DNA of 64,000 nucleotides from Sedimenticola selenatireducens (GTDB lineage: Bacteria; Pseudomonadota; Gammaproteobacteria; Chromatiales; Chromatiaceae): positions 1 through 64,000 of the forward strand of contig NZ_VMNH01000024.1 of assembly GCF_007625115.1 (NCBI RefSeq), read 5' to 3'. A model generated the notes under the pieces. The model was not told the DNA's origin. It saw only the letters and a list, made by a program, of their open reading frames with translations, and searched no databases. Of the stretch, positions 2,187-8,000 are shown in pieces; positions within the stretch are counted from its first letter, which is position 1; each line of letters opens with the position of its first letter. A program made the position numbers and the translations under genes.

Positions 2187-2203
2187 CTATGCTGGAACCC
2201 AAC

Positions 2204-2452
2204 ATGAAGCAACCTTTAATTGATGCCTCAGCTCAAAAAAAAGCCACTAACCTTAGTATAAACAAAGAGTTATTGGCGGAAGCCCGCAACCTGAACATTA
2301 ACCTTTCTGCGACACTTGAGCAGGCGCTAATTGAAAAAGTGCGCCAAGAGAAGCGCAGACAATGGTTAGAGGACAATCGTGTAGCCATTGAGGCCTGTAA
2401 TGAACTTGCGGAACAAAGTGGTCTCTTCTCTGACAAGCACCGGCTGTTCTAA
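2204..2452 (+). CDS. ccdA: CcdA-like type II antitoxin
   Basis: 82 residues with the CcdA layout. The N-terminal part (KATNLSINKELLAEARNLNINLS) is a ribbon-helix-helix DNA-binding region. The C-terminal part is acidic and presumably wraps the toxin, and contains RQWLEDNRVAIEACNELAEQ in slightly shorter form. The stop codon overlaps the toxin start (TAATG), so the two are translationally coupled. I prefer ATG 2204 because ATG 2189 sits just after the operator with no ribosome site. The protein should neutralise CcdB and repress the operon. Confidence 0.85.
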   Translation: MKQPLIDASAQKKATNLSINKELLAEARNLNINLSATLEQALIEKVRQEKRRQWLEDNRVAIEACNELAEQSGLFSDKHRLF

Positions 2453-2769
2453 TGGATCAATTCGACTTGTATGTTAATCCTGATAAGGATACCAATAAGA
2501 CTTATCCCTATTTCATTGATATTCAGAATGGACTACTCAACACACTGAATAGCAGAGTAGTCATTCCGCTAACACCCATTGGTAAATCTGACAAAGCTTA
2601 TCCCGAAAATCTTTGCCCTGTGATCAAGATCAAGAATAAGAATTTTGCGCTCCTTACACACCAACTCACAAGTGTATCAGTCAGCTTTTTAAAACAGAAA
2701 GAATCATCACTCACCTCATATCGGGATAAAATTGTCGCTGCGGTAGACTTTCTGGTTACTGGAATTTAA
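2452..2769 (+). CDS. ccdB: CcdB-like toxin, DNA gyrase poison
   Basis: 105 residues with the CcdB fold pattern: MDQFDLYVNPD start, YPYFIDIQNGLLNTL strand, VIPLTPIGK, then a C-terminal helix ending VDFLVTGI. CcdB binds GyrA and traps gyrase on cleaved DNA. The catalytically important C-terminal Gly-Ile end of the F-plasmid toxin is matched by the final GI here. Full length and intact. The pair sits beside dispersed repeats and an ImmA-like peptidase, in a small accessory patch. Confidence 0.85.
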   Translation: MDQFDLYVNPDKDTNKTYPYFIDIQNGLLNTLNSRVVIPLTPIGKSDKAYPENLCPVIKIKNKNFALLTHQLTSVSVSFLKQKESSLTSYRDKIVAAVDFLVTGI

Positions 2770-2831: not shown

Positions 2832-2874
2832 GCCCCCATTGTTTTGGCACTGTGAGCGTTGGCTGATACAGATC

Positions 2875-2954
2875 GGTAGGGTGGGCACGCCGTGTGTGCC
2901 CACGCGATAATTATGGAGCATACCCGTGGGCACAAAAAACGTGCCCACCCTACC
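2875..2954. repeat. 80-bp palindromic repeat, copy 2 (REP/MITE-like)
   Basis: Same 15-bp terminal inverted repeats and same length as 216-295, differing at only a few internal positions. It ends 7 bp before the stop codon of the minus-strand peptidase gene, so in RNA it would form a strong hairpin at that transcript's 3' end. Confidence 0.9.
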
Positions 2955-2961
2955 GGGCTAT

Positions 2962-4164
2962 CTACATTCCAATCAAATCCAGTTCTTCGATTCTGATCGC
3001 CATTGCTTCCATTGATACCTTGAATTGCATAAACAATGGGATAACATGGCGAGTGTTATACCGCTCTGCTTTAGCTAATATCCTAGCCAACTCTCTCCGG
3101 GTGATATTTTTGTTGTTAAGCTTCAGTAAGCCTGATGGATCAAGCGCAAACGCAGTTTCATGATTCAAAGCAAATCTTTCGCACATAAATATCTGCTTGA
3201 AGCGAATCCGCAGAAGTTTCTCTGGCATTAAGAAAACTGAAGCGAACTTGTCGGCCTCGACTTCAATTTGCTCCCTCCGGCCTGCGCGTGAAACGGAACC
3301 ATCAATGGCTCTATCGCGGTGCATCCGGATATCATTATGAAGAATAGCGTGTCCAAGCTCATGTGCTGCCGTGAAACGCAATGTTTCATAAGGGAGATGC
3401 CGCGATATACGGACACTTTTTTTACTCTGATCAATATAACCAGCTACTTTTGTACCAGTTCCGCGATCAGGAAAATATCCTAAAGAGTCGGATAATGCGT
3501 AATTAAAACCAATTGCTCCCAATGTTATTGAAGGATCAAGCAAATCCACCGGATCTGTTGGTACGCCATCAGGCCACATTTGTTGCCGTAAATTCCATAT
3601 TTCTACTTGAATTTCATGGGCCAATTGCTCTATGCGGCTAACCGGATTCTTTCCGGGCAATTTAGCTATGGAGGAGAGTTTGGCTAGTGGTAGCCTTGGA
3701 AGGGTGCTTTCACCTAAATCAGCTGTATCGAATCCACCAGTGTCGTTTAGGAAAGCATAGGGATTGCCTAACTCTCTACGTCTAGCGGCAACTGATGTGA
3801 TTTTAGGAGATCGTGAGTAGGTGCGAGGAGTTTGCGCTTTAGGTGAATGATCGAAGAAACCGGTATCGTTTAAGTGAGCGTATTGATTGCCGTAGCTTTT
3901 TCTGCTTGCGGAAATATTAATCGAATCGGGTGGAGAATAAGCTGATTGCCTCTTATGTGTTTTGGGTAATGCGTCGAAGCCACCAGTACCATTTATGTGG
4001 GCGTATTGATTTTGGTATTTTCTACGGCTTGACGAAATGAGCGCTTTGCCTGTTTCTGATTGATTTGAAATGGCATCGAACTCGCCTACGTCATTTAAAT
4101 ACGCGTAGGGGTTGCCCAATAATAGGCGGATCATCCGGATCTGATCTCGATATTTTGTGGACAT
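2962..4164 (-). CDS. ImmA/IrrE-type metallopeptidase with four N-terminal NPYA/FD repeats
   Basis: From the ATG at 4164 (AGGA upstream) the protein has 400 residues. A non-ATG extension to 4227 is possible. The C-terminal half is an ImmA/IrrE zinc peptidase: HELGH at residues 268-272 and the downstream metal-ligand region EVEAD near 301-305, then FLMPEKLL. Instead of the usual helix-turn-helix, the N-terminal half has four copies of a 14-residue motif of form (G/Q)N(P/Q)YAxxNxxGxFD at residues 17-30, 51-64, 92-105 and 133-146. Each is preceded by a basic RR/RK patch. Linkers are Ser-, Pro- and Lys-rich and look disordered. ImmA/IrrE enzymes cut or inactivate repressors; the role of the repeats is unknown to me. 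Confidence 0.75.
   Translation of the reverse strand: MSTKYRDQIRMIRLLLGNPYAYLNDVGEFDAISNQSETGKALISSSRRKYQNQYAHINGTGGFDALPKTHKRQSAYSPPDSINISASRKSYGNQYAHLNDTGFFDHSPKAQTPRTYSRSPKITSVAARRRELGNPYAFLNDTGGFDTADLGESTLPRLPLAKLSSIAKLPGKNPVSRIEQLAHEIQVEIWNLRQQMWPDGVPTDPVDLLDPSITLGAIGFNYALSDSLGYFPDRGTGTKVAGYIDQSKKSVRISRHLPYETLRFTAAHELGHAILHNDIRMHRDRAIDGSVSRAGRREQIEVEADKFASVFLMPEKLLRIRFKQIFMCERFALNHETAFALDPSGLLKLNNKNITRRELARILAKAERYNTRHVIPLFMQFKVSMEAMAIRIEELDLIGM
3727..4116 (-). repeat. Four in-frame coding repeats of the NPYA..N..G.FD motif
   Basis: Repeat units code for the 14-residue motif at 4075-4116, 3973-4014, 3850-3891 and 3727-3768. The steps are 102, 123 and 123 bp. The DNA of the units is similar but clearly diverged, so the amino acid motif has been kept while the spacers changed. 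Confidence 0.85.
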
Positions 4165-4313
4165 CAGCAATTTTCCTAGCATTCGATAATATTTTGCGCC
4201 AACGTCTGTCTGATACTCGTTTGGCAAAAGTTCAAGGGGGCAGACTTGTTGATTTTAAGCTCATCTTTTCTGTTTTCAATTTATGCTAGCCAATTTTGTA
4301 TCTTTAAATACCG

Positions 4314-5003
4314 TTACCCGCACTTACTATCACCACAGTTCAAACAGGTGAGACAACCATCCATCATGATCGCCGCCTTGGTGTTGCACTTTTTGCAAAG
4401 CTGGGCGCCTTCCGGAAAATCACAGTCGTGCTCTTTGTCCCGCAAGTTGATGGACTCTTCATATTGGGCGCGTTTTTCATCGATCAACTTCTGCTGATGT
4501 TCATCAGGACCATCTTCTTTCAATAGGCCGATCATCACCAGATGACAGTGAATGGCGTCACCGATTTCGGCCACCAGTGAAGGCATGTATTTGCCGCCTT
4601 TCTTGAAGTAACCACCACTGGGATCAAATACCGAGCGCAGCTCTTCTACCAGGAAGGTGACATCACCCCCTTTACGGAATACGGCCGAGATAATGCGGGT
4701 CAGTGCAACGATCCACTGGAAGTGATCCATGTTCTTGGAGTTGATGAACACTTCGTAGGGGCGGCGGACCTCATGCTCAGTACCATGATTCAGGATAATG
4801 TCATTAATGGTGACATACAGCGCATGCTCAGAGAGTGGCGTACTGATCTTATAGGTTGAGCCGAACAGCATTTCGGGTCGGGCGACCTTTTCATGCATGT
4901 GGATAATGTTGCTTTCTGCCGCTTTCTCTTCAACAGGAGCAGGTGCCTGCTCATCTTTTGCAACACTGTAGCTTACGATTTTACTGTCAATCTTGATTGC
5001 CAT
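4314..5003 (-). CDS. nrdJb: Class II ribonucleotide reductase, small C-terminal chain NrdJb
   Basis: 229 residues resembling Pseudomonas NrdJb, the detached C-terminal part of the B12-dependent ribonucleotide reductase. The central TSCPD-type region (GSTYKISTPLSEHALYVTIN) is followed by KGGDVTFLVEELRSVFDPSGGYF. The tail is Cys-rich (CKKCNTK, then CLTCLNCG), and is likely the redox or zinc end that re-reduces the active-site disulfide of NrdJa. It lies 87 bp downstream of nrdJa on the same strand. AGGG precedes the ATG. Confidence 0.88.
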   Translation of the reverse strand: MAIKIDSKIVSYSVAKDEQAPAPVEEKAAESNIIHMHEKVARPEMLFGSTYKISTPLSEHALYVTINDIILNHGTEHEVRRPYEVFINSKNMDHFQWIVALTRIISAVFRKGGDVTFLVEELRSVFDPSGGYFKKGGKYMPSLVAEIGDAIHCHLVMIGLLKEDGPDEHQQKLIDEKRAQYEESINLRDKEHDCDFPEGAQLCKKCNTKAAIMMDGCLTCLNCGDSKCG

Positions 5004-5090: not shown

Positions 5091-8000
5091 TTAGAATTTA
5101 CCGTAGTAACCCTCTTTCATCGCGTCGAACAGGTTGGCGGCCGAATGGATCTCGCCATCATATTCGATCTCATCATTACCCTTGGCCTCAATCACGGTGC
5201 CATCTTCCAAGGTAAATTTGTATGTGGTGTTGGCCAGGTCTTCCTCTTTAACCAGGACGCCCTGGAATGCCTCGGGATTGAAGCGGAAGGTGGTGCAACC
5301 CTTCAGACCCTGTTCATAGGCATAGAGATAGATGTCCTTGAACTCTTCGTAATCAAAGTCGGTCGGTACGTTGGCTGTTTTTGAGATGGATGAGTCGATC
5401 CATTTCTGTGCGGCCGCCTGTACATCGACATGCTGTTTTGGCGAGATCTGATCGGCACTGATGAAGTAGTCAGGTAGCTTTTGCTCTGCCTCATTGGAGT
5501 AGGGCATGGCCTCTTTATTTATCAGTTCACGATAGGCCAGCAGTTCAAAGCTGAATACATCGACCTTCTCTTTACTCTTTTTGCCTTCACGTATGACATT
5601 GCGGGCATAGTGATGGGCAAAGCTGGGCTCGATCCCGTTACTGGCGTTATTCGCTAGCGACAGTGAGATGGTGCCGGTCGGTGCAATAGAGCTGTGATGG
5701 GTGAAACGACAACCGTGTTCAGCGATCTGTTCGACTAACTCAGGACGTTCTGCTGCAATTTGTTGCATGTAACGGCTGTATTTGGCGTGCAAAATCTTGC
5801 CCTTGATCTTGTCGCCGATCTTCCAGTTATCGACTGCCATCTCGGGGCGCTGGGTCAGCATCTCGTTGGTGATGGTGAATTCCTGTTCCATGATCGGGGC
5901 AGGGCCCTTTTCACGCGCGAGTTCAAGACCCGTCTCCCAACCAACAAGAGCCAACTCTTTGGTTACTTTTTCGGTAAAGCGTAAAGAGGCGGCATCGCCG
6001 TATTTCATGCCCAGCATAGTCATGCAGGAACCGAGGCCAAGATAGCCCATGCCATGCCGACGCTTGTGCTCGATCTCTTTGCGCTGCTCTTCCAGTGGTA
6101 GTCCGTTGATATCAACCACGTTGTCCAGCATGCGGGTGAATATAGCCACTACTTTGCGGAACTCAGCCCAGTCAAAGCTGGCCTCTTTGTTAAAGGCGTT
6201 TCGTACAAACTTGGTCAGATTGACCGAACCCAAGAGACAAGCGCCATAGGGGGGGAGGGGCTGTTCGCCGCAATTGTGGGCGTGCAGACCGTTGGCGTCG
6301 AAGGTGTTGATACCGGGCACCTGAACATCATAGACGGCTTCAAAACCGGCGGATTCTACAGATTCGACCCGGGCAGTGAAACGCTCACGGTTCAGACTGC
6401 GCTGGTAGTTTTTCAGCAGATATTCGAGTTTCTCCTGCTTGTTGCTGTCAGCAAAACCGATTAGCTTGTTGTACTGGCTAAGATTCTCACCACTGATGAC
6501 AAGTTCATGCTGTGCCTTGACGGCATACTCTTGTAAGCCTCCATTCCCATCGGGTAGTGATTTGGTTCCTTCAGGACGACGGGCACGGTAGATCGTTGAG
6601 GCGACGCCCAGCCGCAGCAACATGCGTTGTGCCGCTTCAAGTAGAGAAATACTGGATTGGGACAGGCGTATGCTCACTCCCTTCTTTTGGTTGCCCTGGA
6701 CTGAGCCGTCAGCATCGAAGAGGCCGCGTAATAGTCCGCGGTGGAAACTGCTGGAGGTCTGCTCCATTCGGGGGGTGATTGCTTTATGGCCTGGGTATAT
6801 ACCCATCTTTTCAGCCAGTTTTTTTATGGCGCTGGTGGACAGTCGGAATTCATTTCTTCCCGGCACTTCCATCCAGCCACTGAAATCGGAACGGTGGGGC
6901 AGGGAGTGAGCAGCGGCAAGAGCCTCTTGCATCACAGCCTCTATTCCATGGTCTAAGTTGCCATTACAGCCGTTGGCCACGGCAGCTGCTTTCCAGACAG
7001 AGAGTACAGCTTTGTCTGACTTGAGTGTGCCATCACCAATCAGTAGGCCGAGCAGGTAGCCCTCCTCATGGCTCTGTTCTCCACTCCACTCACTGTTTGA
7101 TCGGTGGTCGTTGAGTAGCACCCGGTCACCTGTAGCCAGCTCTCCAGCTTCACACCACTCAGTTTCGGTACGGTAACGCGTAAATTTGGTAACACGCCGT
7201 ACCCGGTGGTCGGAAGTGAGGCGCAAGCTGTGTCCTTCTGTAGTTTTCAGGTGAACGACAGCTTTATCAGCAGTTTTGAAGAAACCTTCGCTTCCAGAGT
7301 TGTGGTCATTACCATCAACGCGGGCAGCAAATGGAGTGCCAATCAACTCATTTACCTGCCGTGGGCCGGCGCTGGTTTGAATCCAGGTATCCGCTGTAAC
7401 GCAGGGATTGGTGGCACGCACATTTTCACAGAACCAGTTGTTGTTCATCTCATTGACTTTGTCGATCAGGATGAAACCAGGCTCGGCATAATCGTATGTG
7501 GAAGACATGATGACATCCCACAACCTTTGCGCCCGAATGGTTTTGTAAATCTTGCAGGCCACTTTGGTGCCGGTTTCGTCAACAATAAAGTTCTCTTTGT
7601 AGGGCCACTCGCGCCAGACGACTTGATCACTGTTACTCAGACTGATTCCGTCTTCCTGCACCTCTTTCTCTGTAACAGGGAAGGCCAGGTCCCATTGCGC
7701 GTCCTGTTTTACCGCTTCCATAAACTCTTCGGTAATTAACAGGGAGAGATTGAACTGGCGCAGTCGACCGTCTTCACGTTTGGCACGGATAAAATCCATC
7801 ACATCGGGATGCCCGATATCAAAGGTGGCCATTTGTGCGCCACGACGGCCACCGGCAGAAGAGACGGTGAAACACATCTTGTCGTAGATATCCATGAAAG
7901 AGAGTGGCCCAGAGGTGTAGGCACCTGCGCCACTGACATAGGCGCCTTTGGGCCTAAGGGTGGAGAACTCGTAACCAATGCCGCAACCGGCCTTGAGGGT

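Follow-up and report, generated by a model that had tools for sequence, protein, structure and literature searches.

In this study, we investigated a stretch of 64,000 nucleotides from Sedimenticola selenatireducens (contig NZ_VMNH01000024.1, hereafter the window) and observed that it encodes a zinc peptidase of the M78 (ImmA/IrrE) family with four copies of a conserved unit ahead of the catalytic part. Six further unit-bearing peptidases, from other bacteria, were found by searching whole genomes and contigs for unit-bearing proteins, and all seven motif proteins, one of them truncated, fall into a single clade. We tentatively propose, with a probability of roughly 0.4, that the array binds one specific partner in a multivalent manner and thereby steers an active M78 peptidase. 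The kind of enzyme is already known, and the repeat-tailed clade is a small branch within it for which no description was found in the open papers searched. The coordinates of the features discussed are collected in Table 1.

Table 1. Features of the window locus and of related loci (positions refer to the window unless a contig is named).
Feature	Position	Strand	Details
ccdA antitoxin	2189..2452	+	PF07362 E 1.4e-28
ccdB toxin	2452..2769	+	PF01845 E 6.1e-31; convergent with the peptidase gene
88-nt mobile-looking repeat	2872..2959		inverted ends GGTAGGGTGGGCACG / CGTGCCCACCCTACC; separates ccdB from the peptidase stop codon
Repeat-tailed M78 peptidase gene	2962..4164	-	400 aa from likely start ATG 4164; PF06114 E 9.6e-14
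Stand-alone M78 peptidase region	2965..3639	-	common to repeat-less relatives; HExxH is HELGH, then EVEAD
Repeat copy 4	3721..3795	-	contains VAARRRELGNPYAFLNDTGGFDTA; profile match E 1.9e-14
Repeat copy 3	3847..3918	-	contains ISASRKSYGNQYAHLNDTGFFDHS; profile match E 1.7e-14
Repeat copy 2	3967..4041	-	contains ISSSRRKYQNQYAHINGTGGFDAL; profile match E 2.1e-14
Repeat copy 1	4069..4146	-	DQIRMIRLLLGNPYAYLNDVGEFDAI; profile match E 4.4e-14
Promoter-like site TTGAAA-16-TAAAAT	4252..4279	-	intergenic, nrdJb to peptidase gene; matches the consensus only, not above chance in the region
nrdJb-like gene, C-terminal part of class II ribonucleotide reductase	4314..5003	-	upstream of the peptidase gene; PF12637 E 1.9e-7, NF006417 E 2.9e-12
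L034 (genome G092, Chromatiales metagenome), three-gene row	L034:221-2297		weakly HigB-like, HigA-M78, complete unit-bearing M78
L035 (Chromatiales metagenome genome), three-gene row	L035:4551-6948		weakly HigB-like, HigA-M78, complete unit-bearing M78
L059 (genome G114)			unit-bearing, complete; neighbours HEPN/MNT and Fic
L108 (genome G506)			unit-bearing, complete; neighbour Gp49/HTH_37, about 1.3 kb away
L119 (genome G655, outside the class)			complete, first unit without its second half; neighbour ParE/HTH_3
L109 (genome G566)	L109:5590-6821		truncated, single decayed unit; adjoins RhuM-family gene (PF13310 E 7e-19)
Repeat-less M78, Candidatus Thiodiazotropha endolucinida	L037:5998-6684		between nrdA and nrdB, gaps 26 and 5 bp
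Repeat-less M78	L039:5989-6681		29 bp after nrdB
Repeat-less M78	L060:1321-2016		about 80 bp after nrdB

The open reading frame on the minus strand runs from TTG 4227 to the stop at 2962 and would give 421 amino acids, and the ATG at 4164, residue 22 of this frame, is likely the true start of a 400-residue protein, since it is preceded by AGGAAAA and aligned with the start positions of the relatives; this is the start that the first-pass annotation had adopted. The M78 peptidase makes up the C-terminal half of the protein (PF06114, 51.7 bits against a gathering cut-off of 22), with an intact zinc motif whose H, E and H are invariant across the alignments. In the AlphaFold model this part is confident, with pLDDT mostly above 85, and the best Foldseek matches of its fold were IrrE (3dti, E 2.7e-4) and CapP (7t5t, E 2e-3), in agreement with the ImmA/IrrE type assigned earlier. 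The enzyme is probably a soluble and active M78 zinc peptidase.

Pfam detected no helix-turn-helix (HTH), whether the complete window protein or only its N-terminal part was searched, and the N-terminal XRE domain that defines the XRE-M78 fusion type (spr1629 / RmrA / PD-lambda-2_B) was not found, the profile matches being confined to the peptidase part. The first-pass annotation had taken the repeats as a replacement for this regulatory domain. However, in ten repeat-less relatives the protein starts with the peptidase itself and is likewise without an HTH, which argues that the unit was gained by, or lost from, a peptidase that was already HTH-less, rather than put in place of an XRE domain. 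M78 peptidases frequently stand alone; the M78-Xre fusion was reported in more than half of cases, hence not in all of them (Makarova et al. 2009, PMC2701414).

The core of the unit, R-x4-N-x-Y-A-x5-G-x-F, occurs four times ahead of the peptidase, with copies that begin at residues 34, 68, 109 and 150 of the long frame and thus follow one another at 34, 41 and 41 residues. When the N-terminal region was shuffled 200,000 times, the pattern occurred once in 4 of the shuffles and twice in none. Tandem Repeats Finder detected no tandem repeat at the DNA level; the copies share 9-13 of 20 residues with one another, and 5-8 of the identical residues are written with different codons, so the amino acids have been conserved while the DNA has drifted. 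Both the four conserved motifs and the selection on them that had been claimed earlier are therefore retained. The linkers of 34-41 residues given with them were in fact the repeat period, and around a motif of 14 residues they measure about 20-27. Nor are they plainly free disordered tethers, as had been supposed, because the first two units keep a period of 33-34 residues in all six complete proteins. The five complete relatives carry two copies each, 33 or 34 residues apart, and the window protein adds two more at spacings of 41. Five of the six complete proteins, the window protein among them, have the N of their first unit at residue 18; one complete relative departs from this. AlphaFold left the repeats of the window protein at low confidence, with pLDDT under 50 across most of residues 21-148. 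In the two-copy relative L108, helices were modelled at 6-16 and 40-50, each leading into short paired strands, with pLDDT of about 60-67, which weakly suggests that each unit is a helix plus a beta-hairpin. A TPR-like identity was considered from the resemblance of LGNxY..G.F by eye and was rejected, as the unit differs in the distance from Y to G and is not followed by a helix B.

The single clade was recovered with support of 100/99 in a tree of the peptidase only, for which only columns with at least 70% of rows filled were used and the repeat region was thereby excluded. Its distribution is patchy, as family members were noticed in only 5 of the 210 genomes of the taxonomic family. A motif-only profile was run on genomes of the class (369) and the phylum (398) and gave matches at E<1e-6 only on peptidases of this clade; across these roughly 800 genomes every strong match falls on the N terminus of a protein related to that of the window, and the remaining ones at E <= 0.01 are partial, with E 0.004-0.009. 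Conservation in homologues, on which the first-pass annotation had made its reading depend, was thus found. In the six family-bearing genomes, no other protein carries the unit at E <= 2, except for one 7-residue match at E 0.98. A motif common to the peptidase and to a substrate or neighbour protein, which had been suggested as a thing to look for in other genomes, was accordingly dropped as a candidate. Pfam, NCBIfam and PDB sequences gave only weak and inconsistent matches to the N-terminal units, in line with the earlier view that no named domain is involved. An identity with IsiD (NCBIfam) was also considered; it matched copy 4 of the window protein alone (E 6e-4 to 0.012) and was set aside as chance, since it is missing from all relatives. 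A tblastn search of plasmids and phages returned no relatives of the window protein. Viral contigs yielded two full-length relatives, both repeat-less, and the motif as a DNA pattern was not found in such contigs. In the open papers searched, a set that leaves most subscription journals outside, no description was found of the repeat-tailed clade or of an M78 peptidase with repeats or ribonucleotide reductase (RNR), in line with the first-pass annotation, which knew of no such layout.

With regard to the surroundings, the accessory setting described earlier was confirmed by ccdA, ccdB and the 88-nt repeat. This repeat abuts the peptidase stop codon and divides ccdAB from the peptidase gene, and a second copy, 93% identical, lies at 213-300. 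The peptidase gene stands 150 bp downstream of nrdJb on the same strand; its neighbours are ccdAB and nrdJab, and none of the adjoining genes was recognised as XRE. The nearest species (G008) matches the window at 96% identity as far as position 4255, after which an unrelated large gene follows (L130:1-4219); its 1406-residue product has a P-loop-like AEAGAGKT near the N terminus and only a sub-threshold match to a STAND NTPase in Pfam. A protein of 1468 residues with a GxGKT region that is similar by eye adjoins the repeat-less relative L040. In four further species of the genus, other genes come after nrdJab. As G008 and these four congeners carry different genes there, the site downstream of nrdJ is an accessory insertion hotspot. 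Apart from the window gene, no member of the peptidase family was detected in any of eight species of the genus, and the five compared at the site lack it there. The class II ribonucleotide reductase gene of the window also harbors an intein with a LAGLIDADG domain (6269-7402), which is missing in the five congeners compared.

Several other explanations were weighed against the binding array, and two of them arise from the neighbouring genes. The position of the window gene just downstream of nrdJab, together with three repeat-less relatives in nrdAB loci (Table 1), would fit a peptidase that regulates or processes an RNR protein. Nevertheless, no other motif-bearing member adjoins RNR, G008 has the unrelated P-loop gene at the site and five compared congeners are without the peptidase there; the hotspot weakens RNR as a functional partner, and we regard this role as very unlikely. 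The three repeat-less genes are sister-group members at class I ribonucleotide reductase genes, and come from different families; no paper on this arrangement was found. Each of the six complete motif-bearing genes has a toxin-antitoxin pair no more than about 1.3 kb away, CcdAB in the window and other types elsewhere (Table 1). The ten repeat-less relatives have none nearby: the 100 small ORFs around them gave matches to defence and phage families in Pfam but to no toxin-antitoxin family. Since the positives were candidates chosen by eye, two of them close kin, and the negatives were ORFs of roughly 65 amino acids or more that were scanned, this contrast is to be read as a strong lead and not as a clean statistic. 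The family probably works beside toxin-antitoxin genes, and the link may only reflect common accessory islands. The peptidase could then be the third component of a toxin-antitoxin or abortive-infection module, acting on the antitoxin of the pair next to it by cutting or freeing it, in the manner of the three-component systems predicted around COG2856 (Makarova et al. 2009, PMC2701414). The arrangement in L034 and L035 is in its favour, where the gene comes after a weakly HigB-like gene (E 0.16) and a HigA-M78 gene (against the PD-Lambda-2_B profile, E 1.9e-33 and 1.4e-30, respectively) on the same strand, with roughly 30-50 bp between genes, as is the precedent of PD-lambda-2, a tested three-gene defence system (PMC9519451). 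Yet the toxin-antitoxin types vary between loci and most are not co-directional, ccdAB in the window is convergent with a mobile repeat in between, and the third gene of PD-lambda-2 is a relative of the P4 antitoxin and no peptidase, which makes this reading improbable.

The main rival is an intramolecular one, in which the units are pseudosubstrates that occupy the peptidase domain, or are cut by it, and the array serves as a built-in timer or switch through autoinhibition or self-cleavage. Self-cleavage, like a role as phage-sensing bait, was among the speculative functions put forward in the first-pass annotation. It fits the exclusivity of the unit equally well, as the motif stands only in cis with the peptidase and in no separate protein of the family-bearing genomes, which is what is expected of an intramolecular ligand, and the copy number ranges from two to four. 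Against this, the array is of low confidence in both AlphaFold models, whose outputs carry no inter-domain error, and ten repeat-less relatives manage without it; we consider this rival unlikely. Lower still is the chance that a decaying accessory gene has no present function and keeps its repeats as a relic. The patchy distribution, the truncation of L109 and the decayed first unit of L119 agree with such decay, but the open frame and intact HExxH of the window gene, and the repeats conserved despite synonymous drift in the window and the relatives, speak against it.

In the binding-array reading, to which the conservation of the unit points, units of about 33 residues, each a short basic helix followed by an N-P/Q-Y-A turn and a beta-hairpin, would bind one specific partner multivalently, and the array would either put the peptidase on its substrate or restrain it from that substrate. 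Known M78 enzymes cut XRE-type proteins, and on the model of ImmA/ImmR, IrrE/DdrO and CapP/CapH the protein cleaved here would most likely be an XRE-type repressor or antitoxin, whose loss may release a stress, mobile-element or toxin response. No common substrate is visible among the loci, because the toxin-antitoxin types vary by locus and are mostly outside the peptidase operon. It is possible, if rather doubtful, that the units form a new 33-residue helix/beta-hairpin module by which a stand-alone M78 peptidase becomes a partner-directed protease, an add-on trigger for several types of toxin-antitoxin or defence modules in Pseudomonadota. The targets and switches of M78 peptidases are known in few cases only, and a conserved, countable and separable array offers a handle, as it can serve as bait for the partner and be shortened copy by copy. 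The toxin-antitoxin neighbourhood would open the old three-component prediction to testing.

Compared with known M78 systems, the window protein shares the fold of CapP of the CBASS-associated CapH-CapP, and capP scored best among the PADLOC profiles in every motif member tested. It differs in that no CapH-like XRE partner or CBASS genes were recognised beside the window gene, and CapP is not known to carry a repeat array. IrrE/PprI of Deinococcus is likewise an M78 peptidase with HExxH, but it has other accessory domains and no such repeats, and the window is without a recognised counterpart of DdrO, the protein cleaved by IrrE (PMC7907104). ImmA of ICEBs1 is needed for the proteolytic inactivation of ImmR, as cited in PMC2701414. 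The window protein resembles it as a stand-alone M78 peptidase (COG2856) without an HTH. ImmA, however, pairs with the adjacent XRE repressor ImmR and is not known to have a repeat array, whereas the window gene has an array and no recognised adjacent XRE repressor. None of the three genes of PD-lambda-2 (HigB, HigA-M78 and a P4-antitoxin-like gene) was found in the window locus. The rows in L034 and L035 hold two M78 peptidases each in a PD-lambda-2-like arrangement, alike in the HigA-M78 gene and unlike in the third place, which is taken by the repeat-tailed M78 peptidase instead of the P4-type antitoxin relative.
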